From Bacillus multifaciens (GTDB lineage: Bacteria > Bacillota > Bacilli > Bacillales > Bacillaceae_G): DNA of 64,000 nucleotides. The stretch covers positions 1-64,000 of the forward strand of contig NZ_JAVBXD010000011.1 in assembly GCF_030756675.1 (NCBI RefSeq), read 5' to 3'. Position 1 is the first letter of the stretch; each line of letters begins with the position of its first letter. The notes under the pieces were generated by a model. It searched no databases. It was not told the origin of the DNA and saw only the letters and a program-made list of their open reading frames with translations. A program made the translations under genes and the position numbers. Of the stretch, positions 2,556 through 56,020 are shown in pieces.

Positions 2556-2654
2556 GTATTTACTAAAATACATTCAAGGGAAACTTTGACTTTGAATCTA
2601 AGTCATATGAATTTATAAAATGTAATATTTTAATGGGATAAAGGGGTGTTCAAT

Positions 2655-4535
2655 ATGATTATGAGTAGATTGCAACAAATAAGTAAGATGTTTGGAGGGA
2701 ATTCAATTTTTGAGAATCTTTCACTTGAAATACATGATGGAGAACGTGTTGGCTTAGTTGGCCACAATGGCGGGGGAAAAACCACTATTATGAAAATCAT
2801 AGCAGGTACCGAAACAGTGGATAGTGGAATTGTTACATGGAAGAAAGGAATAAAAATCGGTTATTTATCGCAAATCCCTGTCTTTTCTGATCAGACTTTA
2901 AGTAAAGATGTGTTGATGTCTGCTTTTTCAGAAGTTCTTGCTATTTCAAAGAAAATGATGTTACTTGAAGCAAGCATGGCTGATGAAAAAGGAGAAAAAG
3001 ACTTAAATCACCTTTTAGAGGAGTATGGTTCGCTGCAAGAATCTTTTGTTATGCTAGATGGCTATGAGATTGATGCAAAAGTTTCTAAGGTGGCAAATGG
3101 TTTGGGGGTAACTAAATTATTAGATACTCCGTTTTCATCCTTAAGTGGTGGAGAGAAAACGAAAATATGCCTCGGGATGATATTATTGGAAAAACCCGAC
3201 CTGCTACTGTTAGACGAACCAACAAACCACTTGGATATTTCAGCTGTTGAATGGTTAGAACAGTTTTTAAAGGATTATAAAGGATCAGTTGTTATTGTCT
3301 CCCATGACCGTTACTTTCTGGATGAAGTGGTAACTAAAATTATTGATTTAGAAAATGGAGAAGTAAATGTTTATCACCAAAATTATTCAGGATTTGTTAT
3401 TGAAAAAGAAAAGCTACTGATGGAGGAATTTCAGGCTTATAAAGAGCAACAAAAGAAAATAAAAAAAATGAAAGAGGCCATAAAGCGGTTGAGAGAGTGG
3501 GCAAATCAGTCATATCCCCCCAGCGAAGCTTTATTTAAAAGAGCGAAAAACATGGAAAGAGCTTTGGAACGAATAGAGAAACTAAAGCGACCGGTATTAG
3601 AGAGAAAAAAAATGGGGCTACAATTTGATTCTGCAGATAGAAGCGGAAAAGATGTGATTATTATAAAAAATGCTAGTAAATCCTTTGGAGGAAATACTCT
3701 TTTTCAAAATGCAAATGTACATATTCAATACAAAGAACGGATAGCGATTGTTGGAAATAATGGTACTGGAAAATCCACCTTGTTGAAGATGATACAAGGA
3801 GAGGTAAAAGGCGATGAAGGAGAAATTCGGGTTGGAAGCAATGTTAAAATTGGCTATCTTTCGCAGCAGTTATATATGAATAATTTAAATGAATCGGTAA
3901 TTGAAGCTTTTCGTGCGGAAGTGAAAGTAACAGAAGGAGAAGCGCGGAATATCTTAGCAGGATTTTTGTTTTACGGTCCCTCTGTATTCCACAAAGTAGG
4001 TCAATTAAGCGGAGGAGAGAGAATGAGGCTTCGTTTGGCACAACTGATGCATCAGGATATAAACCTATTGATATTGGATGAGCCGACAAACCATCTTGAT
4101 ATTGATTCTCGGGAAGTGCTTGAGGAAGCAATCAAAGATTTTCAAGGGACGATTTTAGTGGTGTCCCATGATCGCTATTTATTAAATAAACTGTTTGAAA
4201 AAACATATTGGATTGAGAATGGAGCCATTTATCACTTTGCCGGAAATTACAGTTGGGCACGAAAAAAGCTTCAAGAGTTATCTTCTAAAAAAGAAGAAAC
4301 TGAAAAAACAAAAAAAACTGTTGAAAAAACCAAAATCCAGATAAATAAAGAAGGGGAAAAATTGGAGCAATTCGAAGTGGAATTGGAGGAAGTTGAAAAT
4401 TCTCTACAGGAAAATAATCAGAGAATGGAAATAGAAACAGATTTACTAAAACTACAAACTCTTTTTGAACAAAGGCTGATATTGGAACAACAACGAAATG
4501 ATTTATATCGGGATCTGGAAGAATTTATTGGATAG
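2655..4535 (+). CDS. ABC-F family ATPase, probably ribosome-protection type
   Basis: About 626 residues with two ABC domains and no membrane segment. Domain 1 has Walker A GHNGGGKTT, signature LSGGEKTK and Walker B LLLLDEPTNHLD. Domain 2 has GNNGTGKST, LSGGERMR and LLILDEPTNHLD. A highly charged linker (around residues 250-320) joins them, and the C terminus is a coiled coil. ABC-F proteins bind the ribosomal E site; some housekeeping members have this length, while others displace lincosamide/pleuromutilin/streptogramin drugs. The attenuator upstream favours a drug-responsive role, which is inference. ATG 2655 is chosen because AAGGGG lies 8 bases before it; a GTG at 2646 overlaps that site. 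Confidence 0.88.
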   Translation: MIMSRLQQISKMFGGNSIFENLSLEIHDGERVGLVGHNGGGKTTIMKIIAGTETVDSGIVTWKKGIKIGYLSQIPVFSDQTLSKDVLMSAFSEVLAISKKMMLLEASMADEKGEKDLNHLLEEYGSLQESFVMLDGYEIDAKVSKVANGLGVTKLLDTPFSSLSGGEKTKICLGMILLEKPDLLLLDEPTNHLDISAVEWLEQFLKDYKGSVVIVSHDRYFLDEVVTKIIDLENGEVNVYHQNYSGFVIEKEKLLMEEFQAYKEQQKKIKKMKEAIKRLREWANQSYPPSEALFKRAKNMERALERIEKLKRPVLERKKMGLQFDSADRSGKDVIIIKNASKSFGGNTLFQNANVHIQYKERIAIVGNNGTGKSTLLKMIQGEVKGDEGEIRVGSNVKIGYLSQQLYMNNLNESVIEAFRAEVKVTEGEARNILAGFLFYGPSVFHKVGQLSGGERMRLRLAQLMHQDINLLILDEPTNHLDIDSREVLEEAIKDFQGTILVVSHDRYLLNKLFEKTYWIENGAIYHFAGNYSWARKKLQELSSKKEETEKTKKTVEKTKIQINKEGEKLEQFEVELEEVENSLQENNQRMEIETDLLKLQTLFEQRLILEQQRNDLYRDLEEFIG

Positions 4536-5021: not shown

Positions 5022-6215
5022 TTATGCTACGGTTTTATGGCCCTTTTCGTTTTCACTTTGTTTAGAGTATATGGTAAACAATATTAATGATACAAATAAA
5101 GTACTTACACCTGTAATAATAATAATATTTACCATTGAGAAGTACTCACTTAATGCACCAAATGCTAATGATAAAACCACCATTACAAATGAACAAATTA
5201 CATTTGATAACGATACAAGAGAAGCACGTATATTAGACGGGATTGAATGATGTAAGACTGCGTTAAATGTTGTATCCCAAATTTCAAATAAAACATTTAT
5301 TATTATAAATAACGATAAGATAATAAACATATTTGGTATCGACATAGCTAAAAACGATACTAAACTTATAATCAAACTCCAAAAAATTAAATTTTTCTCA
5401 GAAAATTTGTTTACAAAATAATATGAGTATGTCGATGCTACTGCACTAAATAAGGACAATACAGTAAATATAATTGCTATAGTAGACACACTAAATCCAA
5501 CTTCAACAAATAAAACTTGACCAAACATATATATTACTGACAATGTTCCTTGTAATAATGCAATAGTGATTATTAAGTTTTTGAAACTATTTTTACTTTT
5601 TAAAAAGTTATTCACTTCCGATATAATATTCGATTTTGTTTCTTTTGTGCCTTCTGCAGATAGAATTTTTCTTTCTTTAACTGAAAACAATACTATCAAA
5701 GCTAATAATTGACCTAATATTCCTGCAATAAAAACAAACTTCCATGAAATATTTTGTAAAAAACCACCTGCAAAAGAACTTAAAGCCAAAGCTATAATAG
5801 CAATTGCATTATACTTACCAATAATTCGTTGATAATAAGTTGATTGATCCTTATCCAAATTATTGTAGATTAATGTTTGATCCGCACCCGAAATCATTGC
5901 TAATCCAATACCATAGCATACAAACCCTAAAGCTAGAAAATATAAATTAGAAGGATTCAACATAGTAAAGAGATATACAATTATCAGAGTATGTCCCAAA
6001 GTAATTGCCTTTTTATTACCAAACTTATCTGCGATTATCCCCGATGGGACTTCAAATAAAAACATTGCACAGTTCAACATAGCCTGCAATATACTAATAT
6101 GTAACAAGGATACTCCTGATGAATTTAAGTAAATCATCCAAATAGATCTTTCAAAAAATAAGCTACCCCAGAAAATATAAACAAACATTCTATTAGTACT
6201 ATTATTGTTTTTCAT
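5022..6215 (-). CDS. MFS transporter, last gene of the peptide cluster
   Basis: 397 residues with about 12 predicted membrane helices. The first loop between helices 2 and 3 has the MFS-like stretch GIIADKFGNKKAITLG. It is the last gene of the minus-strand peptide cluster and starts 4 bases after the M3 peptidase gene stops, so it is translationally linked to it. In microcin C operons the MFS protein MccC exports the finished compound and protects the producer. By position this gene is the likely exporter here. The substrate is inferred, not visible. Confidence 0.85.
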   Translation of the reverse strand: MKNNNSTNRMFVYIFWGSLFFERSIWMIYLNSSGVSLLHISILQAMLNCAMFLFEVPSGIIADKFGNKKAITLGHTLIIVYLFTMLNPSNLYFLALGFVCYGIGLAMISGADQTLIYNNLDKDQSTYYQRIIGKYNAIAIIALALSSFAGGFLQNISWKFVFIAGILGQLLALIVLFSVKERKILSAEGTKETKSNIISEVNNFLKSKNSFKNLIITIALLQGTLSVIYMFGQVLFVEVGFSVSTIAIIFTVLSLFSAVASTYSYYFVNKFSEKNLIFWSLIISLVSFLAMSIPNMFIILSLFIIINVLFEIWDTTFNAVLHHSIPSNIRASLVSLSNVICSFVMVVLSLAFGALSEYFSMVNIIIITGVSTLFVSLILFTIYSKQSENEKGHKTVA

Positions 6216-6219
6216 GTCA

Positions 6220-7926
6220 TCAACCCTCTAATTGTGTTAATAGTTTATTAAGTATCTTGATTATTGACTTTACATGGGAATCGGAATTTATATTAATACC
6301 AATATCCTTTAAGATTTCCATGTCATTTTTACTACAGCCGTTAGAAAATAGATTAATGTATTTATACTTAAATTCGTCATTCTCATATATTTTCTCGACA
6401 ATATATTCTGATATACCTACAGCAACTACATAATCTAAATTATAGAAATTTTTATACAAATGAGGAATTCTTACCCAATTAAATTTATTTAATTCAATAT
6501 TTTCAAAATGCTCACTGTCATAATATTTCGATATTGTATCTACATAAATATTAGAGATTAATTCTGCAGTTAACCTTTCTTTTAAAGAGGCTAATGATAA
6601 TGCTTTTTCAAATTCAACTAATTGGAATGTCTGAAAGAAATTCTCTCTAATTTTATCGACATACTTATGCAAAATGGACAATTTAATTTCAGAATCACTA
6701 TATTTATCCAAAAGGTGTCTACTAAGTAATCCTTCATTAACCATAGATGAAATTTCAGTAATTAAGATAGATTGCTCTGAATATATAAAAGATTGATTTT
6801 TAGAAGAAATGTAGGATGCAATTGCCCCACCTATTTCATGTATTAATGTGTATAAACTATCTATGTTAGATTGCCAGTTTATAAGAATATAAGGGTGCGC
6901 ATCGTATACATTTAGAGAATACCCACCTGTTCTTTTTCCACTATAAGGAGACCAGTCAATCCAATTTTCATCAAAAACTTTTTTTACCAGATCAAGGTAA
7001 TCTTGACCTAACGGTGAAAGTGCTTCAAAGATAATATGTTTCGCTTCAGCAATATCAATTTTTTCATTAAATTCACCTATCAATGGATACATATCATAAT
7101 AGCTAATTTTATCTACTTGCATATTTTTCTTTTTTAGTTCAATAATCTTGTGAAACAAATTCAAATTTTCGTTAATTGCATTAGAATAACAATTAAAGTT
7201 TTGATATCCAACTTTATCTTTTAAATGGTAATCAAAGCTATTAACTTCTCCATTCTCTCTTGCTTTTATATTTTGAATTTTATTATGAGCATTTAATAAA
7301 AAAGCAGAGAAGTCTTTCTTTTTTTCTAACTCTTCTAATACTGCCATGTATGTACCTTTTCTTATATCTAATTCCTGAGATTCTAATAGTGTTAAATGGT
7401 TTTCATTCCTCACAACAATTTCCTTACCATTGTGATTAAACCTTGTTATTTCATTATCAGCATATAGTAGTTCTTTATACATCATCTCTATAGAAAGTGC
7501 ACTTTCCATTTCTACAACATTGGTTTTATTTTCAAAATCCTCTAACGTATGCAGATACTTTTTTAATTTCCCATCTACTTTAGAACGACTATAAATTAAT
7601 TCCTTATTGTTTTCCAACCATTCATGAAACTTATGTAAATAATTATCATAATAACTATATAAATCCTCTGCAGCGAACATTATTTTATTCGAATGATCAT
7701 TATTTATATTAGTATCATACTTTAGTAAAGCATAATTATATATTTTATTTAATCTTCTATATCCCTCTTCAATATCCTCAAGTACTTTATATAATAATGT
7801 TAAATCATTTTGTTCAATAATTTGTTCAAATTTAATTTCTTCGATATTATCTTGGAAACTTTGGAGTTCTTGCTTCCATTCTTCTTCGTTAATATAAATA
7901 TCTTTTAAGTTCCACGTTAAACTCAT
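6220..7926 (-). CDS. M3-family oligoendopeptidase-like protein with mutated zinc motif
   Basis: 568 residues resembling PepF/oligoendopeptidase F across the catalytic region: KRTGGYS, HPYILINW, then the metal site and downstream ITEISSMVNEGLL. The HExxH zinc motif reads H363-E-I-G-G367, so the second His ligand is Gly (codon at 6826-6828) and the following conserved His is Ala. The first His, Glu and the downstream Glu ligand remain. It sits between the ATPase-GNAT gene (11 bases) and the MFS gene (4 bases). It may be a catalytically inert peptide-binding chaperone, an altered metalloenzyme or a leader-processing factor. There is no signal peptide, so it is cytoplasmic. Confidence 0.85.
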   Translation of the reverse strand: MSLTWNLKDIYINEEEWKQELQSFQDNIEEIKFEQIIEQNDLTLLYKVLEDIEEGYRRLNKIYNYALLKYDTNINNDHSNKIMFAAEDLYSYYDNYLHKFHEWLENNKELIYSRSKVDGKLKKYLHTLEDFENKTNVVEMESALSIEMMYKELLYADNEITRFNHNGKEIVVRNENHLTLLESQELDIRKGTYMAVLEELEKKKDFSAFLLNAHNKIQNIKARENGEVNSFDYHLKDKVGYQNFNCYSNAINENLNLFHKIIELKKKNMQVDKISYYDMYPLIGEFNEKIDIAEAKHIIFEALSPLGQDYLDLVKKVFDENWIDWSPYSGKRTGGYSLNVYDAHPYILINWQSNIDSLYTLIHEIGGAIASYISSKNQSFIYSEQSILITEISSMVNEGLLSRHLLDKYSDSEIKLSILHKYVDKIRENFFQTFQLVEFEKALSLASLKERLTAELISNIYVDTISKYYDSEHFENIELNKFNWVRIPHLYKNFYNLDYVVAVGISEYIVEKIYENDEFKYKYINLFSNGCSKNDMEILKDIGININSDSHVKSIIKILNKLLTQLEG

Positions 7927-7937
7927 CTATTTCACCA

Positions 7938-9233
7938 TCATTTCTTTATATAATGTTTCATCTTGATGAACTTTATTTCTTCATACAACCACTTTATATC
8001 ATTCTCATTAAACACCCCTGTTACAAAACCCTTAAAGTGCTCTTCATTATACTTAGGTATTTTATTAGCTAATCCACAATACAATTTATATTGCCAAAAA
8101 GTTATTTTGGATAAGACTCTTTCCTCAGCTAATAAAACATCCCTATGAGGTATATCTATATCTCCAAATCCTTCAAAGTATTTTTCAATGAAAATATAGT
8201 CTTCTTCTTTGTTTAATTCATATTCCTGAATTTCTTCAAACCCCATGTTTAAGAAAAAAGGAATATACTCGGCTAAAGCAGAACAAACGTACATAGGTAC
8301 CTTACCATTTAATTTTTCAACTTCACCAAAAAAATAAGTTGATAATCCGGCTCCTCGAATTAAAGGGTGTAAAATAATCCTACTCAAGATTTTTACCTGT
8401 GAGTTTATTTCTATAAATTCTTCATCCTCTTGATCATTAGAATATGGGCTTTTAAGAATAATAACGCCCATTAAATCTCCATTGAACTCTAGTTTATAGT
8501 AAACAGTATTATATAATTGATTTGTTTCTTCTGATGAATGGGGGAAATAATGATATTTTTCTAATTCAAGATAATCTTCATATGTACCCCCTGAAACTTT
8601 TATAGATTCTAAAAAAGGATTGCTTTTATCATAATCTTTTTTTAAAATTTTTATTTCTTTATCCAAATTCAATGAAATTTTATTGTCCGGTCTTAGATAT
8701 TCTTCTAAGTCGTCGTGAGCACTAGCTAGAATAGCTGAAATACCTAATTTTCTTAATAACTTTTGTGTATTAAAACTTACAATTTTAGCTGTAGGTCTAT
8801 CTAAATAACTACAAAATTCATCAATAAATATTTTCTTATACCCCTTAGATAACATATAGGCTAAATCAAAACGGAATTGCTGTCCTGTTGATAAGTTATT
8901 GTAATTTGTTATATATAAATATGGCTCAGACAATCCCACCATATTCAAATAGTAGAGTGTATCTTTAAAGTTTTTATTTAGTATATCTATAATAGGAACA
9001 TTTTTTTCAAAATCTTTTTTCACTTGGACATAACCTTTATGAAGACATATTTCTTTTGATAAAGTAGTCTTACCGCTACCCGAACATCCTGTAATATAAG
9101 TTATTCCATCTAAATTTTCTTCAAAATTAAAATTATTATATATATGTCTAACTTTCGGATTAATCCCAAATACTCTGATTACTTCACGATATTTATCAGA
9201 AAAATCATACTCACTATCAATTAAAACTTTCAT
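7938..9233 (-). CDS. ABC-type ATPase fused to a GNAT-like domain
   Basis: 431 residues. Residues about 1-200 form one ABC-type ATPase: Walker A GCSGSGKTT (49-57), signature-like LSTGQQFRF (about 114) and Walker B KKIFIDEF, followed by SAHDD in the switch-His position. Residues about 205-360 look like a GNAT acyltransferase: ILSRIILHPLIRGAGLSTYFF resembles the acetyl-CoA loop, and YIPFFLNMGFEEI the typical C-terminal strand. There is no membrane segment. MccE in microcin C systems is a GNAT that acetylates the processed toxin for self-immunity, so an immunity or tailoring role is a reasonable guess. A 104-base gap separates it from the upstream gene. Confidence 0.7.
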   Translation of the reverse strand: MKVLIDSEYDFSDKYREVIRVFGINPKVRHIYNNFNFEENLDGITYITGCSGSGKTTLSKEICLHKGYVQVKKDFEKNVPIIDILNKNFKDTLYYLNMVGLSEPYLYITNYNNLSTGQQFRFDLAYMLSKGYKKIFIDEFCSYLDRPTAKIVSFNTQKLLRKLGISAILASAHDDLEEYLRPDNKISLNLDKEIKILKKDYDKSNPFLESIKVSGGTYEDYLELEKYHYFPHSSEETNQLYNTVYYKLEFNGDLMGVIILKSPYSNDQEDEEFIEINSQVKILSRIILHPLIRGAGLSTYFFGEVEKLNGKVPMYVCSALAEYIPFFLNMGFEEIQEYELNKEEDYIFIEKYFEGFGDIDIPHRDVLLAEERVLSKITFWQYKLYCGLANKIPKYNEEHFKGFVTGVFNENDIKWLYEEIKFIKMKHYIKK

Positions 9234-9337
9234 GATTTACTCCTTTTATAAGCGTATTTTAATAATTCTGTTTTTTATATTATCAGAAAGAAGGTTTGAT
9301 CTTTTTTATTTAGGACACTTTATCTTGTATTTTTGAG

Positions 9338-10708
9338 CTATTCAATTTCTAAAAATTTATATAAATCATTATTATCTATATAGAATCCAGAAAGTTCTTT
9401 AGATTGAAAGTAGATATGTTTACCAAAATATAAAGGAATAATTGTAGAATGATTCTCTAAATATAAGTCAATCAGTACTTTCTTTTCCACTGTACATTCC
9501 TCTAAATAATCATTGAGTAATTTAATGTAACCATCTCTTACTTTTTCATCCTTAAATTTATCTAAATAGTTTAATAATAAATCTATTTCTGAGTTAATTA
9601 ATGGGGAAACTAATTTTAAACATATATCGAATTGTTTCCTATTATATGATTTAATAAAATTTTTTAATGACATTGGATGAGATTTAACTGGAATGTGGTT
9701 TTTGTCTAAAAAACCAATTATTTCACTAACTATTAGATCATTAGGATAATAATCAGCGTACAATACATTTAAATCACAATTCACTAAATTACTGATATTA
9801 GTATTCTCATACTCACCATTATTGTGTTTGTATCTTTTCTTCTGATACTTAAGATTATTAGTAAATAAATAATTATCAGAAATATTTAAACCTTTATTTA
9901 ATATTTCATTATTATGTAATTTATCATAAACATAACTTGCTAGTTGCTTTTTATATGGAAGCAAAGCCTCACTTATTTCTAACATAAATAATATGTTAGA
10001 ATTTTTCATGTAAAAATCTTGATCACCCTCAAAATTACCAATCATTTCAAATGGAAAATAAGTAGAACAACTCATATTTAGTTTATTACTCTTGTAATTA
10101 TCAATTCCGTCTGATAGTTTGTCTAAATATATAAAATTCAATTCTTTTGTTTTTACTTTTCTTTCACGGAAAAAGAAAGGGTTATTTTTCACCCTGATAA
10201 TGCTGTTACATATAGTATCAAGATGAAACCTACCATTTGATACATTATTTACAGGTTTTCTGTCAATAAAATATATTGGACTAAATTGTATTGTTGAAAA
10301 GAGTTTTTTATAGTCATAGCTATATTTTGTTTCAATATATATTGAATTTCGAGAAAGATGTATTCCCACATTTTCTATAGGATCCCCGTCATATAAGTAT
10401 TCTTCAACTCCCACAATAAAATCTAGGTATGAAGAAAACATTGTTCTTTCTTTCAATATATATATTAGTGTTTTATACATATCTTCAGCATTTAATGGTA
10501 ATCCATTAGACCAATATGATTCTAAAAATTCTAGAGTTATAACGTTATTCTTATAATTTTCCTTAACATAAAAACTTTTATATTCTCCATCTTTCTCAAA
10601 AAAAATGGGCTCGTACATGCTACTTAGTATAGATTTACTCGAGAAATCATGTGCATTAAAAGTATATAAATCATGTGGCTTATCATCTATTTGAATAAAA
10701 GTACTCAT
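9338..10708 (-). CDS. OppA-like (SBP family 5) protein without signal peptide
   Basis: 456 residues. The N-terminal half has features of oligopeptide-binding proteins: SMYEPIFF, then WSNGLPLNAEDMYKTLIYIL (the W-x-G-x-P-x-T/A-A-x-D motif of family 5 binding proteins). It starts MSTFIQIDDKPHD, with no signal peptide or lipobox, so it should stay in the cytoplasm. It begins 3 bases after the E1-like gene ends, so the two are tightly linked. A cytoplasmic peptide-binding protein beside a peptide-activating enzyme could present, hold or sequester the precursor or product. The family call is moderate; the role is inferred. Confidence 0.6.
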   Translation of the reverse strand: MSTFIQIDDKPHDLYTFNAHDFSSKSILSSMYEPIFFEKDGEYKSFYVKENYKNNVITLEFLESYWSNGLPLNAEDMYKTLIYILKERTMFSSYLDFIVGVEEYLYDGDPIENVGIHLSRNSIYIETKYSYDYKKLFSTIQFSPIYFIDRKPVNNVSNGRFHLDTICNSIIRVKNNPFFFRERKVKTKELNFIYLDKLSDGIDNYKSNKLNMSCSTYFPFEMIGNFEGDQDFYMKNSNILFMLEISEALLPYKKQLASYVYDKLHNNEILNKGLNISDNYLFTNNLKYQKKRYKHNNGEYENTNISNLVNCDLNVLYADYYPNDLIVSEIIGFLDKNHIPVKSHPMSLKNFIKSYNRKQFDICLKLVSPLINSEIDLLLNYLDKFKDEKVRDGYIKLLNDYLEECTVEKKVLIDLYLENHSTIIPLYFGKHIYFQSKELSGFYIDNNDLYKFLEIE

Positions 10709-10711
10709 GTA

Positions 10712-11638
10712 TCAATTCTCCATAAACTCTATAGTATAATCTCTGAAGTTCAATGACTTTCTCCTATAAAGATTCTCTTGTTTATCATTGATCCAAAATT
10801 CTAAAATATCATTTGAAATTAAAGCACCAATAGTCATGTTTGTAGACGAGATAGATCCCATTACTGGTTCCCTATGCTCTGTATCTAAAAGAATAGTATT
10901 AATGAAATTACCTTTAAAGATTGGTCCCCAATAACCAGTTTCAATTCCAACAGCACCTTGGATAAAAGGTATACTTCTGGCTTTACAATATTCATAAACG
11001 ATATCATTGATACATTTAGGTGTATCGGCACAATTAACAAAGAAGTCCGCATCATAATCATTACAAGCACTCTGTAAATCTTCAACTTTATTAACTCGAA
11101 TATTAATTGTATTAATTTCTATATCTTTATCAAATCTACTAATAATTTCTTTTATAATGGATCCCTTATTACATCCAATATGATTAGCATCAAAAAAGAG
11201 TTGACGGTTAAGATTGCTTTCTTCCACATTATCAAACTCTATTATCAAAAAGTGCTTAACTCCAAAAGAAATCAAATTTTTGAGTACTACAGTACCTATT
11301 CCACCACAGCCTAGAATAATCACCTTTTTCTGACATATATTTTTTTGAATATTTACAGGGTCACTTCCAAAATTTGGTTGTTTGTTTTCGAAAAAATGTA
11401 TATTTTTCACAAGTTTCGCATCTATATTTTCTATATTATATGGCTTAACTACTAAAGAGTTATCTATTAAAAAGTCTCTTAATTCAGTTGATAGTTCTTC
11501 AATTTCCCATTCTCTCTTACTTAATAAATTAAAAAAACATAAATCAGGATCTTCAATTTCAAAAAGGTTAGTTCCAAAGTAAATACTACAATAAGGTGTT
11601 TGATGTTTTATTACGACAGCTTCTTTAAAACGTAACAT
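10712..11638 (-). CDS. E1/ThiF/MccB-like peptide adenylyltransferase
   Basis: 308 residues. Residues about 1-95 form an N-terminal domain that could be a peptide clamp (RRE-like). The E1 core follows: ATP-binding GCGGIG at 110-115, then IIEFDNVEESNLNRQLFF with the conserved Asp and SNLNRQ. The CxxC zinc pairs common in MoeB/ThiF and MccB are not apparent. MccB adenylates the C-terminal Asn of MccA to make a peptide-nucleotide. Here four tiny repeated peptide genes lie immediately upstream, which strongly suggests they are its substrates. GGAGG precedes the ATG. It is the first enzyme gene of the operon. Confidence 0.85.
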   Translation of the reverse strand: MLRFKEAVVIKHQTPYCSIYFGTNLFEIEDPDLCFFNLLSKREWEIEELSTELRDFLIDNSLVVKPYNIENIDAKLVKNIHFFENKQPNFGSDPVNIQKNICQKKVIILGCGGIGTVVLKNLISFGVKHFLIIEFDNVEESNLNRQLFFDANHIGCNKGSIIKEIISRFDKDIEINTINIRVNKVEDLQSACNDYDADFFVNCADTPKCINDIVYEYCKARSIPFIQGAVGIETGYWGPIFKGNFINTILLDTEHREPVMGSISSTNMTIGALISNDILEFWINDKQENLYRRKSLNFRDYTIEFMEN

Positions 11639-11660
11639 TATTATCTATTCCTCCAAATCA

Positions 11661-11704
11661 AAAGACTTGGAGCATTAAGGATTACTCCAAACCTCCAAGT
11701 CTTT
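11661..11704 (-). terminator. hairpin between precursor genes and E1-like gene
   Basis: A perfect 12-bp inverted repeat (AAAGACTTGGAG / CTCCAAGTCTTT) with a 20-base loop lies between the last peptide gene and the E1-like gene. On the minus strand it is followed only by TGATTT, so it is a weak terminator. It could let some transcripts through while keeping peptide mRNA abundant. The E. coli mcc operon has a hairpin at the equivalent place. Confidence 0.6.
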
Positions 11705-11722
11705 GTGATAATTAAAAATTTA

Positions 11723-11770
11723 TTATGAACGGTGTGTCATTTCACGTGTAGTTTTGCGTGTTACCTTCAT
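11723..11770 (-). CDS. 15-residue precursor peptide, copy 1
   Basis: Encodes MKVTRKTTREMTHRS, identical to the other three copies. The ribosome site GAGAGGAG (11780-11787) is 9 bases before this ATG. An in-frame ATG three codons upstream abuts the ribosome site and is less likely; the codon between the two ATGs differs between copies (Arg or Thr), consistent with it not being translated. This copy is nearest to the E1-like gene. It is Lys/Arg/Thr-rich and ends in Ser. It is interpreted as the substrate of the E1-like enzyme because of position, repetition and size (MccA has 7 residues). Confidence 0.75.
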   Translation of the reverse strand: MKVTRKTTREMTHRS

Positions 11771-11841
11771 TCTTTTCATCTCCTCTCAAATCCTTAGCTT
11801 GAATTTTATGTAATGGTTTTATCATAGATTTGAACCACTTA

Positions 11842-11889
11842 TTATGAACGATGTGTCATTTCACGTGTAGTTTTGCGTGTTACTTTCAT
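11842..11889 (-). CDS. 15-residue precursor peptide, copy 2
   Basis: Encodes the same peptide MKVTRKTTREMTHRS. Relative to copy 1, Lys2 is AAA rather than AAG and His13 is CAT rather than CAC, both silent. A GAGAGGAG-type ribosome site (here TGAGAGGAG) lies 9 bases upstream. It starts the block of regular 107-bp spacing shared with copies 3 and 4. Confidence 0.75.
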   Translation of the reverse strand: MKVTRKTTREMTHRS

Positions 11890-11948
11890 TGTTTTCATCT
11901 CCTCTCAGATCTTTGGCTTGAAATTACATCCAATTCTTTAACCAATTA

Positions 11949-11996
11949 TTATGAACGGTGTGTCATTTCACGTGTAGTTTTGCGTGTTACTTTCAT
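11949..11996 (-). CDS. 15-residue precursor peptide, copy 3
   Basis: Encodes MKVTRKTTREMTHRS with its own ribosome site, exactly 107 bp from copies 2 and 4. The surrounding non-coding spacer is also almost identical to that of copy 2, which indicates recent tandem duplication. Confidence 0.75.
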   Translation of the reverse strand: MKVTRKTTREMTHRS

Positions 11997-12055
11997 TGTT
12001 TTCATCTCCTCTCAGATCTTTGGCTTGAAATTACATCCAATTCTTTAACCAATTA

Positions 12056-12103
12056 TTATGAACGGTGTGTCATTTCACGTGTAGTTTTGCGTGTCACTTT
12101 CAT
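12056..12103 (-). CDS. 15-residue precursor peptide, copy 4 (promoter-proximal)
   Basis: Encodes MKVTRKTTREMTHRS; Val3 is GTG instead of GTA, a silent change. It is the first peptide gene of the minus-strand transcript. Across the four copies every base difference found inside the 15 codons is silent, which argues that the peptide itself is under selection. Confidence 0.75.
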   Translation of the reverse strand: MKVTRKTTREMTHRS

Positions 12104-12249
12104 TGTTTTCATCTCCTCTCAAATTTTTGGTTTGAAATCGATTTATATCAATAAATCAATCCAATAAATCAATCTAATCTGTGAATAAATCCATCAATAC
12201 GCTTATTATTTAGAAAAATTATCTTCACCTTCTTTTATTATTATTTTGA

Positions 12250-13034: not shown

Positions 13035-13838
13035 TTGAATAAATTATTAGTAGCCGATCAAACTAATAAAATTGATAAAGTAGATAGCATTACTGACAAA
13101 GAGTTTTTAGCGAATTACGCACTTAAGAGCAAGCCGGTATTATTAACTGGAATAATTGATACTTGGAAAGCAACGAAAGAATGGTCATTTGACTATTTTA
13201 AAGAAAAATATGGAGATACTATTATAACTATCCATACATGCAGACCTCCAACTAATACAGAATTGTACGAAACTAGTTTAGGTGAATATATAGATTATAT
13301 AAAAAAAGGTGATTTTGAGGATAATCCATGGTATTGTGATTGGACATTCACGGAAAATACACCTGAAATTAGTGAAGAATATCAAGCTATAACAGCATTC
13401 GGCGATAATTGGATTGATAATATACCAAAAGGAATATTAAATGAACCTAAATGGATTTACATAGGACCAAAGGGTTCTGGTACTTCTCTACATATTGACT
13501 TTTGTATGACAAGTGCTTGGAATGCAGTTATAGTAGGACAAAAAAAATGGGCATTCTTCTCTCCAGATCAAGCCCCTTACTTATATGATGGAGAAGTAGA
13601 TGTATTTAATCCAGACTTCGAAAAATTCCCATTGTTTAAAAAAGCTCAGCCTATAATTGTTACACAAAAAGCAGGGGAAGTTATGTATACACCATCAGGA
13701 TGGTGGCATCAAGTTTTAAATGAAGAGAGTGGGATTTCAATAACAGAAAATTATATCAATTCCACGAATGCAGATGTGTCTTTATGGCCTTATTTAAAAT
13801 CTGTTATCAAAAAGAATGGTTGGAACGTCCAAGATTAA
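13035..13838 (+). CDS. JmjC/cupin_8 Fe(II)/2-oxoglutarate oxygenase
   Basis: 267 residues with the cupin_8 architecture. SKPVLLTGIIDTWKA near residue 33 is the usual N-terminal motif. The iron triad is H153-x-D155 in SLHIDF and H225 in GWWHQV. K170/K171 in VGQKKWAFF match the region that contacts 2-oxoglutarate. Relatives hydroxylate side chains of proteins or peptides. It is transcribed away from the peptide cluster but within the same AT-rich island, so it could hydroxylate the island's peptide product. The TTG start follows GGGGTG with good spacing. Confidence 0.8.
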   Translation: MNKLLVADQTNKIDKVDSITDKEFLANYALKSKPVLLTGIIDTWKATKEWSFDYFKEKYGDTIITIHTCRPPTNTELYETSLGEYIDYIKKGDFEDNPWYCDWTFTENTPEISEEYQAITAFGDNWIDNIPKGILNEPKWIYIGPKGSGTSLHIDFCMTSAWNAVIVGQKKWAFFSPDQAPYLYDGEVDVFNPDFEKFPLFKKAQPIIVTQKAGEVMYTPSGWWHQVLNEESGISITENYINSTNADVSLWPYLKSVIKKNGWNVQD

Positions 13839-14332: not shown

Positions 14333-15121
14333 ATGACTAATTTAAAAAATGTTCTTGAGCTTGATTTTGCATATTTTGAAACCTTTACTAGCCAAATAGA
14401 GAAATCATGGGGTTCTATATTTTGTAATGAAGGTAACCCATATTATTATGATGCAAATCATGCACATGTAAGTGTAGTAAGTTTGAACCCAAAAATGATA
14501 GTAGATGAAGTAGTTCATTTCTACAAAACTAAAAATATAGTACCTAGATTTTATATATACAACTTAGATATGCAAGAAAAACTGATCTCTGAATTACAAA
14601 TAAGGAATTTTGGATTTGAAGAATTAATACTTCCAATTCAATTATGGAATAAGGAATTAATTAAAAAAGATAAAAATAAAAAAGTTACTATTGAAAAGGT
14701 ATCTGAATTAAATTTTGAAGAAACTTTAGATATTCAATGTAATATAAAGGAGCTTGGAGGAGGCGAAGTTAGAAAAAAGGCTTTTCAAGAGGAATTTCAA
14801 CATCCAGCATTTACTCACTATCTGCTTAGATACAATGGAGTAGCATGTTCCATTGCTTGTATTTTTGAACATGAGAAACAGGCCCGAATGGAAAGTGTAG
14901 CTACAATTGAAAAGTTTAGAGGTAAAGGGTTAATAGGTGAACTTATTCATTTTATTCAATGTGAAGTAATGAATAGGGGGCTAGATAATCTTTGGGTGAT
15001 TCCAATAAATGAAAAAGTAGAAAAAGTGTATGAGAAGTATGGATTTGAAACAGTAGAAAAAATTAAGACAGGACATGCATTTTTAGAAGGAAAAAGTATT
15101 AAAGAAATTCACGAGGGATAG
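14333..15121 (+). CDS. GNAT-family N-acetyltransferase
   Basis: 262 residues. The C-terminal half (about 125-255) carries the acetyl-CoA fold: ARMESVATIEKFRGKGLIGELI (motif A, R-G-K-G-L-I-G) and VYEKYGFETVEKI (motif B). The N-terminal half is a divergent GNAT-like or lineage-specific domain, giving the double-length form seen in several Bacillus acetyltransferases. AGAGGG precedes the ATG. As the last gene of the island it could supply immunity, as MccE does in microcin C systems, or be unrelated. The substrate is unknown. Confidence 0.75.
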   Translation: MTNLKNVLELDFAYFETFTSQIEKSWGSIFCNEGNPYYYDANHAHVSVVSLNPKMIVDEVVHFYKTKNIVPRFYIYNLDMQEKLISELQIRNFGFEELILPIQLWNKELIKKDKNKKVTIEKVSELNFEETLDIQCNIKELGGGEVRKKAFQEEFQHPAFTHYLLRYNGVACSIACIFEHEKQARMESVATIEKFRGKGLIGELIHFIQCEVMNRGLDNLWVIPINEKVEKVYEKYGFETVEKIKTGHAFLEGKSIKEIHEG

Positions 15122-15356: not shown

Positions 15357-16385
15357 TTATTTACTTTTATTTAAAGGAACGACTAATTCTAATTCCTTTA
15401 TTTCTTCACTAAATCCTTCACTATTTGTTCGACTTGGCTTGAGTGTAAATGATTTTGGTATGGTATCCATTGGAGGCAAAGTCAGTACCATATGATGACC
15501 ATAGTTCCCAACAGCCATGCCTTCCTGTAGTTTTAGTTTATCATATACATGACCATTATCATCGACTACAGAGAAATTAAACCATGGCCAACTATCGTTT
15601 TTATCCATTTCGGCAGGGTAATCAATCGTTAGGTCTATTCTTGTTGATAAAGGTGATAATGTTACTTTGTCGGCTGTTAGTGTATACACTTCATCAACCG
15701 TTTGAGTTGTAACTTCTGGATAAAACTCAAATACATCACCTTTTATTTTTTCAAGTGGGAAAGCCACCTTCAACTTACCTTCATAGCCAAATAAATCTTC
15801 TCCATGGACCGCAATTTCAATTTTATCGCCATATTCATTATAATTAGAAAAGGTAAATTGATGATGTTCAATTATTGTTTTCGAGTTTATGTCATCTTGC
15901 CCTGTTGAACTAATCGCTGGTTTAACTTCTTGTTGTCCATTAATTGTTATATAGCTAAAGCCGACCTTTTCTTCTTTCATCGAAAGTTCTTTTTGACCTG
16001 TGTAAACAACTGTTACGATTAACCGGTTTCCATCATAAGCTGCTTCTTTTACAGTCATTGTTAAGCCGTTTTTACTATCTTGTTTATCAATTACTGTCGT
16101 AAGTTGATCATGTTCAATTTTATCTGAGGCAATGTCTCTAAAATCTTTATAAATTGGACCAATTAGGGGAATATTTGATAAGGCTTCCGCCATGCCTGTT
16201 GAAACAAATCCAGAACCAAGCAAAGATAGACATAACCCACATGCAACCAAGATTGACCGTTTTGTGGTTCTTCCGGCTTTTCTTTTTTTCTTGGCTTGAA
16301 AGATAGCCGCCTTCTCCCTTGCCATTACCTTTTCAATTGGTACATTTATGTTGTCGATAGATCGATTGAATTTGTCTTTATTCAT
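15357..16385 (-). CDS. DUF4179 membrane protein, probable anti-sigma factor
   Basis: 342 residues. A short cytoplasmic N terminus (about 1-45, Lys/Arg-rich) leads to one membrane segment, SILVACGLCLSLLGSGFVSTGMA. Then comes an extracellular region beginning LSNIPLIGPIYKDFRD, as in DUF4179/RsiV-like proteins, and a beta-rich C terminus. Its start overlaps the end of the sigma factor gene by 8 bases, so translation is coupled. An ECF sigma factor and a single-pass partner encoded together is the usual sigma/anti-sigma layout. The inducing signal is unknown. Confidence 0.8.
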   Translation of the reverse strand: MNKDKFNRSIDNINVPIEKVMAREKAAIFQAKKKRKAGRTTKRSILVACGLCLSLLGSGFVSTGMAEALSNIPLIGPIYKDFRDIASDKIEHDQLTTVIDKQDSKNGLTMTVKEAAYDGNRLIVTVVYTGQKELSMKEEKVGFSYITINGQQEVKPAISSTGQDDINSKTIIEHHQFTFSNYNEYGDKIEIAVHGEDLFGYEGKLKVAFPLEKIKGDVFEFYPEVTTQTVDEVYTLTADKVTLSPLSTRIDLTIDYPAEMDKNDSWPWFNFSVVDDNGHVYDKLKLQEGMAVGNYGHHMVLTLPPMDTIPKSFTLKPSRTNSEGFSEEIKELELVVPLNKSK

Positions 16386-16911
16386 AAAGATAGCCCTCCT
16401 TTAAAATGGGTCTTAGTTCTTTTTTCGCCCGATTTAAGTGTGATTTCACGGTTCCTTCCGGGTAATTCATGATGGTGGCAATTTCTTTAATGGACAAATC
16501 GTGATAATACCTCAACAAAATAATGGTCTTAACAGTAGGATTTAAGAATTTAAAGGCCTCTGATAAATCCATCGAATGCATGATAAAATCAACATTTTCA
16601 GAAGCGATTAATTCAGTAAAGATTTCCTCATTATCTGTAGTAAAATGGCGGGACTCTTTCCGAATAAAATCAATCGATTTAAAAACTAGAATTTTTGTAA
16701 TCCAACTCGAAAAACGTTCAGGCTTTTTTAATGTCTTTATTGAAATATAGGCTGTATAAATTGTTTCTTGATAAACATCTAGAGCATCTTGTTCATTTCT
16801 AACATATGCATAGGCTGTTCGATACAGCTTTTGTCGAACAGAAGCAATCAGTTGTTCAAATGCTTCATCATCACCCTTTTTTGCTTTTTTCACTAATTTT
16901 GCTAGATCCAT
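16378..16911 (-). CDS. ECF-type RNA polymerase sigma factor
   Basis: About 177 residues. Region 2 contains AYAYVRNEQDALDVYQETIYTAY (the D-A-x-D-V-x-Q-E-T box), and region 4 contains LLRYYHDLSIKEIATIMNYPEGTVKSHLNRAKKEL. ATG 16911 is chosen because GAGAGGAG lies about 8 bases upstream; the frame stays open to 16968. Its gene overlaps the DUF4179 gene. It lies between the Tn3 end and the resolvase, so the pair may be a transposon passenger. Confidence 0.88.
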   Translation of the reverse strand: MDLAKLVKKAKKGDDEAFEQLIASVRQKLYRTAYAYVRNEQDALDVYQETIYTAYISIKTLKKPERFSSWITKILVFKSIDFIRKESRHFTTDNEEIFTELIASENVDFIMHSMDLSEAFKFLNPTVKTIILLRYYHDLSIKEIATIMNYPEGTVKSHLNRAKKELRPILKEGYLYE

Positions 16912-16991
16912 TTTGGTTCTCCTCTCCGTTACACAATAAAGTCGAATGAGGAAGTAAATCGGTTGCAAAATAATTAAATGTATTAAAATTG

Positions 16992-17564
16992 TTATCCATT
17001 ATCTTTTTCCATTTCCTTTAGCCTACGATAAAATGCCGCCTGACTGATTCCTGTAATTGCACATATCTCCTTTACAGTTTTATTGGTAGTTTTACGTAAT
17101 TCAATGGCATGATTCATACCTTGATGCTTATATGTATATTTTTTAACTCTTCCTCGATATTTCCCCTTTTGCTTGGCCAATTTAATTCCTGAACGTTGCT
17201 TCTCTTTAATCATTTCTCGATCTAGTTCACTAAAGGCTGCCATTACCGTTAAAAAGAATTTACCAGTTGGTGTTCTGGTATCTATTCCTAAGTTTAAAAT
17301 AACAAAGTGTATATCTCTTTCTCTAAGTTGTTCAACTAACTGCAGTAACTGAATAGTGTTTCGACCAAGACGATTCATTCGTGTCACAACTAATGTATCA
17401 TTAGGAGCTACCTTGGAAAGAAGTTCATCTAAAAGTGGCTTTTGTTTAGAAACGCCACTTATTTTCTCCTCCACAAGTTCATCTACTCCGTATTTTGTAA
17501 GTTGATCAATCTGGCTATCTAGATTTTGATCTTGTGTACTTACTCGAGCATATCCATAAATCAT
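16992..17564 (-). CDS. Tn3-type serine resolvase
   Basis: 190 residues. The N terminus is MIYGYARVSTQDQNLDSQ, with the nucleophile Ser in R-V-S-T. VVTRMNRLGRNT and FFLTVMAAFSELDREMIKEKQRSG follow, and the C-terminal helix-turn-helix is TVKEICAITGISQAAFYRRL. Length and motifs are those of TnpR resolvases that recombine at res. The 48-bp sequence at 17625 immediately upstream is the obvious res candidate. Confidence 0.92.
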   Translation of the reverse strand: MIYGYARVSTQDQNLDSQIDQLTKYGVDELVEEKISGVSKQKPLLDELLSKVAPNDTLVVTRMNRLGRNTIQLLQLVEQLRERDIHFVILNLGIDTRTPTGKFFLTVMAAFSELDREMIKEKQRSGIKLAKQKGKYRGRVKKYTYKHQGMNHAIELRKTTNKTVKEICAITGISQAAFYRRLKEMEKDNG

Positions 17565-55817: not shown

Positions 55818-56020
55818 CCCACGGACATATCTCTCGATAGCTCTCCACAAGCAAAAAGCTTGTGACAGTCCTGCACTTATTCAATGCAGACCCAGCAAGA
55901 AAGCGTTGTGGATACTTCTTGCTTCGGCAATTATTCCTTTTTGATTTGTTCAGCGATGCCACACATCTCCCAAATCATACTATTAATAATTGCAACCTCT
56001 ACCTCACCGAGATACGAATG
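55818..56020 (-). ncRNA. lysine riboswitch (L box)
   Basis: On the minus strand the conserved L-box blocks occur in order: GTGAGGTAGAGGTTGC, GATTTGGGAGA, GCCGAAGCAAG, CTGGGTCTGCATTG with its GTGCAGGACTGTC partner, and GTGGAGAGCTATCG. They lie about 120-320 bases before the permease start, with a terminator between. Lysine binding should reduce read-through. Confidence 0.9.

Follow-up and report, generated by a model that had tools for sequence, protein, structure and literature searches.

A 64,000-nucleotide stretch of Bacillus multifaciens DNA (contig NZ_JAVBXD010000011.1, positions 1 to 64,000; in the following, the window) was found to carry a gene cluster in which four tandem minigenes for one 15-residue peptide, MKVTRKTTREMTHRS, precede the gene of a ThiF/MccB-like adenylyltransferase. 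An earlier note made from the letters alone had read the locus as an E1/ThiF-dependent peptide natural-product cluster with the minigenes as precursor genes, and had named related loci that keep the enzymes and lack a conserved short open reading frame (ORF) as the finding that would speak against it. The opposite was seen. A short ORF lies ahead of thiF in all 11 loci of the family, by which the assignment is well supported. The minigene-ThiF loci appear to represent a natural-product family not yet described, and a side-chain lactone between Glu10 and Ser15 of the window peptide, formed by the adjacent enzyme, is tentatively predicted from the sequences.

The minigenes are located on the minus strand between positions 12103 and 11723 (copy 1, 12056..12103; copy 2, 11949..11996; copy 3, 11842..11889; copy 4, 11723..11770), with spacings of 107, 107 and 119 nt, and the ribosome site gagaggagatgaaaa[c/g]a stands ahead of the ATG in all four. 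Four tandem copies with their own ribosome sites and only silent base differences, as previously described, were thus confirmed from the window sequence: three bases vary among the copies, all of them third positions, in codons 2, 3 and 13. The 46 nt upstream showed 11-14 differences between copies 1, 2/3 and 4, while those of copies 2 and 3 were identical. Multiple copies would raise the precursor dose. In vitro, reiterative translation decreased from 71 rounds with the wild-type seven-codon mccA to 6 rounds with an A15 template (PMC6495379), and we infer from this drop that the tandem copies compensate. Genome G956, placed elsewhere in the tree, has a second set of identical tandem minigenes, in three copies, and this speaks for selection on the copy number as such.

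The enzyme gene (10712..11638, minus strand) follows the last minigene. The comparison with the MccB, PaaA and ThiF families, which the earlier note had proposed as a check, assigned the protein to the ThiF family (Pfam, E 1.1e-33) with MccB as the best PDB sequence match. A Foldseek search with a structure model also placed MccB first and PaaA (5ff5) as the next family. The ATP-site residues are visible in the sequence, and the model reproduced the MccB fold including an N-terminal peptide-binding domain. The combination expected of a ThiF-dependent ribosomally synthesized and post-translationally modified peptide (RiPP), namely a fusion of a RiPP recognition element (RRE) with ThiF, an adjacent conserved short precursor and an exporter, was found, the RRE-like domain being predicted from the model of the window protein.

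Between the last minigene and thiF a terminator-like hairpin with a main stem of 12 pairs was predicted (11661..11704, minus strand); the folded interval 11641-11722 gave a minimum free energy of -25.9 and a z-score of -4.76 against shuffled sequences. Hairpins were also predicted in the corresponding interval of all nine other loci folded (L010 was left out), with z-scores from -1.76 to -12.4; the weakest, that of L002, was equalled in 10 of 200 shuffles. Such a hairpin 3' of the minigenes would allow the short mRNA to be produced in excess.

Relatives of the cluster were collected by several searches. With tblastn, using ThiF and then the OppA-like protein described below, plasmid clusters were obtained from S. 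aureus, L. plantarum and L. garvieae, and a profile scan of genome contigs, in which the best 80 of 337 loci were examined, added loci from L. ruminis and S. parasanguinis. A survey of six partly overlapping genome sets with the OppA-like profile (E <= 1e-15) gave matches in 1 of 295, 1 of 350, 0 of 193, 2 of 397, 2 of 398 and 1 of 348 genomes. The matches in the 295-, 350- and 348-genome sets and one in the 398-genome set were the already known G003 or G001; the loci in G999, G956 (L103) and G1376 (L104) were new. Plasmids of E. faecalis and L. lactis contributed a distant branch with pyridoxal phosphate (PLP) enzymes. These distant ThiF clusters (L010 and L011) each have two PLP-dependent enzymes and an acetyltransferase (tested with Pfam for L010 only), and ERT and VRT are the last residues of their peptides. 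Genome and viral contigs gave no match when scanned with single sequences, profile scans of viral contigs gave one distant ThiF fragment or nothing, phage records gave four weak partial ThiF matches of which none covered 80%, and plasmids contained no DNA-level match. Members are thus few and scattered, in the manner expected for mobile DNA, and the census is thin. The 11 loci counted exclude L014, which has the same peptide as L017 and an M3-like gene reading in two pieces, and two S. aureus plasmid loci carrying the same cluster as decayed copies annotated in pieces: L008, with the peptide of L001, and L009, in which the minigene itself is out of frame. A Sporosarcina plasmid locus with M3, ThiF and ABC genes (L004) was rejected as a member; its ThiF grouped with the outgroup, its M3 protein keeps HExxH and its short ORF lacks the motif described next.

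The peptides of the other loci were MKVTKKTSREMVKRT (S. aureus), MEIEEKESREMHRRT (L. garvieae), MLVDEKETREMHRRTLF (L. plantarum), MIVEEKETRESTRRTVL (S. parasanguinis), MDVDEKDVREIHHRCLRMN (L. ruminis, ending in Asn after a four-residue tail), MKIEELELDRTAEMLTHRT (G999), the Cys-ending MKIEELELEVELDELVHRC (G956), MKIKRIKPTSSRPMAVRS (G1376), MNEEGKTTEMTFEDLFVEIISVERT (E. faecalis) and MEENDIITENIDFEEIFSDLEMRVRT (L. lactis). All 11 contain R-[STC] at the end or at most four residues from it (permutation mean 1.6, maximum 7 in 20,000), and in eight the motif is the exact C-terminus. Fourteen non-family loci were scanned with a script for comparison. Eight short ORFs with ribosome-binding sites were chosen from them by eye (L004, L015, L019, L025, L030 twice, L035 and L049), and in the remaining loci no ORF was taken for a precursor. 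None of the eight ended exactly in R-[STC], although one (L025, ...QRTADR) had it within the loose four-residue margin, which counts against the lactone reading proposed below. The two ORFs of L030, a Brevibacillus ThiF locus, are similar and in tandem (9627 and 9731) and end in HSS and HAS; they belong to another ThiF peptide group. In the ThiF tree the 11 members stood together with a support of 91/87, which is below the star threshold, and with two long branches, while the window enzyme grouped with five others with a support of 99/98.

The next gene (9338..10708, minus strand) encodes an OppA/SBP_bac_5-like protein without an evident signal peptide. The window protein alone matched SBP_bac_5 with E 0.0017, under the Pfam cut-off, and the family profile matched OppA chains with E 1e-5, so that the link to OppA appears weak but consistent. 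No signal-like hydrophobic start stood out by hydropathy, without use of a signal-peptide program; the S. aureus protein has an internal hydrophobic stretch. The signal-less OppA-like protein of the earlier reading agrees with these findings. Its gene adjoins thiF in 10 of the 11 loci and overlaps it or lies at most 4 bases away in nine of these (92 bases in L. ruminis); at the L. lactis locus it was not detected, and two short ORFs take its place. Further downstream lies the gene of an oligoendopeptidase F-like (M3B) protein (6220..7926, minus strand) that matched PDB 2qr4 with E 1e-67 and remained under the NCBIfam cut-offs. The M3-like designation held for the fold family, with the correction that the HExxH zinc motif of M3B oligoendopeptidase F is absent. 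All five members compared (window, L001, L002, L017 and L098) have HExxG, in which the second histidine is gone, whereas 2qr4 and the unrelated L004 protein retain HExxH; in the E. faecalis relative the zinc motif is lost. The protein is predicted to be a non-catalytic peptide binder, and we read both the OppA-like and the M3-like protein as putative binders of peptide. Beside the G956 cluster, in which no M3 was found, lies a prolyl-oligopeptidase-like S9 protein (L103:12089-13795) that is a candidate for peptide processing. PHROGs families of unassigned function matched the M3-like (E 6e-63), ATPase (2e-33) and ThiF (4e-27) proteins encoded at 6220-11638, which indicates relatives in prokaryotic-virus genomes.

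The predicted chemistry follows from the peptides. In the clade of the window, Lys6, Arg9, Glu10, Arg14 and Ser/Thr/Cys15 are constant in six of six members, and 0, 0, 0, 2, 2 or 4 residues follow position 15. Since the tail varies from 0 to 4 residues, it is the spacing between Glu10 and the nucleophile that is fixed, and not the C-terminus. Glu stands at position -5 to the nucleophile in 8 of the 11 peptides, including all six of the clade, and Glu10 is the only acidic side chain in the window and S. aureus peptides; the window peptide has no other Glu and ends in Ser. The ThiF enzymes of RiPP pathways described in the passages compared activate a carboxylate by adenylation, and it is the nucleophile that varies between them (PMC12150305, PMC12250964). 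In the proposed course, the RRE-like domain would bind the front of the peptide, with the conserved Lys6, and ThiF would spend ATP on adenylating Glu10 at its carboxylate. The activated Glu10 would then be captured, with loss of water, by the Ser15 hydroxyl next to Arg14 (by Thr or Cys in relatives), as in the Glu35-Cys39 ring of GrcB. The resulting ring would be a small ester, or a thioester in relatives with Cys, and the OppA-like and HExxG M3-like proteins would keep this short, cationic peptide bound while it is modified or passed on. A (thio)lactone with a mass change of -18 Da is the leading expectation, ahead of an AMP or CMP adduct.

Several findings weigh against this prediction. Compared with the thioester that GrcB forms to Cys, an ester to Ser or Thr is less favoured. 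Glu is at -6 in the L102 peptide, Ile replaces it at -5 in E. faecalis, and the G1376 peptide has no acidic side chain at all; if it is a true precursor, its enzyme can activate only the C-terminal carboxylate. In E. faecalis, too, activation may take place at the C-terminus. The N-terminal domain of the ThiF model reached a pLDDT (predicted local distance difference test) score of only ~60-75, the OppA-like model was unusable (mean pLDDT 43), and the L. ruminis locus is without an M3-like gene.

Activation of the C-terminal carboxylate instead of Glu10, with the tails of three relatives clipped first, is accordingly the closest competitor, and we regard it as possible though rather doubtful. 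MccB, IndF and EnfB all act at the peptide C-terminus (PMC12250964, PMC12150305), eight of the 11 peptides end exactly in R-[STC], that of G1376 lacks an acidic side chain, and an amine could be supplied by the two PLP-dependent enzymes of the E. faecalis cluster and the two seen by eye in that of L. lactis. Within the clade of the window, however, Glu10 is invariant and keeps its spacing in the three of six members with 2-4 residues after Thr or Cys, and the sole recognisable peptidase there is the HExxG protein. Far less probable is membership in the microcin C group proper, with a peptide-nucleotide Trojan horse joined through an N-P bond. The earlier comparison with microcin C stood as regards the enzyme fold, with MccB as the closest solved structure, the mccA-mccB-like hairpin and the MFS pump, and GNAT-like immunity points the same way. 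Microcin C precursors, however, all end in the Asn needed by MccB (PMC6495379), and this residue is absent from 10 of the 11 peptides. Membership was therefore rejected for the window peptide, and the AMP or CMP adducts that the comparison implied are not the leading expectation. That the minigenes are attenuator leader peptides, on which ribosome stalling opens the hairpin before thiF, is scarcely more credible. A short ORF followed by a terminator-like hairpin and nearby ABC-F genes would suit it, but four identical copies in the window and three in G956, each with its own ribosome site, stand before one hairpin. The exact C-terminal motif is absent from the eight short ORFs of other ThiF loci, and a substrate is required by an MccB-like enzyme that has a peptide-binding domain, for which no other conserved short ORF was noticed.

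A further alternative concerns function and is compatible with either chemistry: the modified peptide might be a quorum-sensing signal and not an antibiotic, which we consider unlikely. Regulators of the helix-turn-helix (HTH) or RNPP type near the precursors in three of the 11 loci (L013, L017 and L103) suggest quorum control, thiolactone rings occur in staphylococcal signals (PMC12250964), and peptide taken up again could be sensed by an OppA-like binder in the cytosol. Against this, the scan of seven window genes revealed no HTH or RNPP regulator, streptococcal RiPP loci, some of them antibacterial, likewise have such regulators as neighbours or controllers (PMC13361665, PMC12445099), and the GNAT/acetyltransferase, ABC-F and MFS genes are read as self-immunity and export.

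With an antibiotic as the preferred product, the remaining genes can be placed as follows. The MFS gene downstream, as earlier described, was found by Pfam (5022..6215, minus strand) and would export the product; across the loci MFS was above the Pfam cut-off in eight of 11, present by annotation in two and a sub-threshold fragment in one. The gene at 7938..9233 (minus strand) had been described as an ATPase-GNAT fusion, of which the ABC-type ATPase was verified by Pfam. The GNAT half had no Pfam match in the window protein and a sub-threshold match in a homolog of 35% identity beside the G956 cluster (L103:10736-12013), so that it is called GNAT-like here; the protein is predicted to confer immunity. 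An ABC-F gene (2646..4535, plus strand) encodes a possible further self-immunity protein, and its linkage to the cluster is less certain. ABC-F genes above the NCBIfam cut-off for ribosomal-protection-like proteins lie beside three clusters (window, G999 and G956); those of G999 and G956 are 59% and 49% identical to that of the window, while other ABC-F proteins in these genomes reach at most 39%, and in G956 the gene starts 18 bases after the MFS gene on the same strand. On the other side, no ABC-F was found at the cluster in any of three other cluster genomes searched (G001, G003 and G1376; E <= 1e-40), and G1376 carries a 56% relative of the same subtype in an unrelated housekeeping neighbourhood, which weakens ABC-F as a strict cluster gene. 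Because the ABC-F and ATPase-GNAT proteins would protect the producer, a ribosome-related target, that is, a translation-targeting antibiotic, is suggested.

A divergent JmjC/Cupin_8 gene (13035..13838, plus strand; Pfam), outside the range of the earlier note, likely belongs to the cluster because relatives adjoin three other clusters; it is predicted to encode a tailoring hydroxylase acting on a side chain. JmjC genes with HxD were found beside only four of the 11 clusters, a point against the overall explanation, the remaining seven loci being judged from annotation or ORF lists; the three relatives are 31%, 41% and 48% identical to the window protein. A GNAT acetyltransferase gene follows at 14333-15121 (plus strand); it does not clearly resemble the GNAT gene in the S. 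aureus cluster. Methyltransferases adjoin the L002, L017 and L102 clusters. Beside the G1376 cluster lie genes of a B12 radical SAM RiPP C-methyltransferase (L104:12659-14557; TIGR03975, E 7e-170) and a DUF5825 protein (L104:11925-12659); judged from these genes, the family likely has a C-methylated branch there. A BipA/TypA-like GTPase recognised by eye (L104:5972-7798) also adjoins this cluster and may be a coincidence.

PADLOC matched only the E1 and ATPase proteins of the window cluster. Resolvase- and tyrosine-recombinase-like ORFs, seen by eye at 490-2107 and 16992-17564, flank the cluster, as would suit a mobile island. A sigma-70-family (ECF-type) factor, followed by an ORF that by eye resembles a membrane protein and is possibly its anti-sigma factor, lies at 15357-16968 (minus strand), and a lysine riboswitch aptamer at 55830-56009 (minus strand; 133.8 bits) was the sole Rfam match at the gathering threshold in the window.

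With this cluster, the few ThiF RiPP classes of known chemistry are joined by a family that is scattered and often plasmid-borne. The substrate is short enough for synthesis, and a single-tube assay of the enzyme is feasible. If the lactone is true, ester formation by an MccB-like enzyme would be undescribed in the literature passages compared. The conserved OppA-like and pseudo-M3 proteins raise the possibility, open to test, that folds of transport proteins and peptidases have been adopted as chaperones for peptides, and the ABC-F neighbours hint where to seek the target. The full proposal goes further and is, taken whole, rather unlikely: a new RiPP class of Arg-[Ser/Thr/Cys] peptides of 15-26 residues, which an MccB-fold enzyme would convert into macrolactones from Glu to Ser/Thr (or thiolactones, where Cys is present) while a chaperone of the OppA fold in the cytosol and an inactive M3 peptidase hold the peptide, and of which the product is a ribosome-directed antibiotic neutralised by a dedicated ABC-F in some producers. 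In the open literature, judged by title and start of abstract, no description of the R-[STC] motif or of the gene set was recognised, and an earlier sighting of the Streptococcus branch is possible.

Among known systems, the biphenomycin pathway shares a JmjC/cupin hydroxylase tailoring a RiPP (BipG, PbsQ) and differs in its MNIO, B12 radical SAM and arginase scaffold enzymes, with no ThiF step described in the passages compared (PMC12707348, PMC12257519). Pantocin A resembles the window system in the E1-like fold of PaaA (5ff5). PaaA acts on Glu in a bicyclic Glu-Glu chemistry, whereas the window peptide has a single Glu. In enterofaecin (EnfB) and indolylamide (IndF) biosynthesis an RRE-ThiF enzyme also cyclises a short precursor, and the Ind pathway has a peptidase and a transporter as well; these systems differ by C-terminal activation and by the hydrophobic C-terminal cores WWIVI and NWYFI, which occur in none of the 11 family peptides. 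Microcin C of E. coli and B. amyloliquefaciens shares the tiny precursor gene, the hairpin before the MccB gene, GNAT-type immunity and the MccC pump, which belongs to the MFS. The window differs from it in having four tandem copies, OppA-like, pseudo-M3 and JmjC proteins and no C-terminal Asn. The GRC system of S. pneumoniae, a radical SAM RiPP with a 39-residue precursor, uses a pair of radical SAM enzymes and an RRE protein of its own, and its description makes no mention of tandem minigenes, OppA-like or M3-like proteins in the passages compared (PMC12250964). Pfam scans of seven window genes gave no radical SAM protein; a standalone RRE was not searched for. The Glu-Cys spacing is 4 in GrcA, compared by its description, whereas the corresponding spacing in the window peptide is 5. 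The ThiF-like enzyme with RRE is a shared feature, the ring formed by GrcB between the Glu35 carboxylate and Cys39 (PMC12250964) resembles the one predicted here, and the name GRC, which we read as Gly-Arg-Cys, resembles the Arg-Ser/Thr/Cys ends of the peptides described here.

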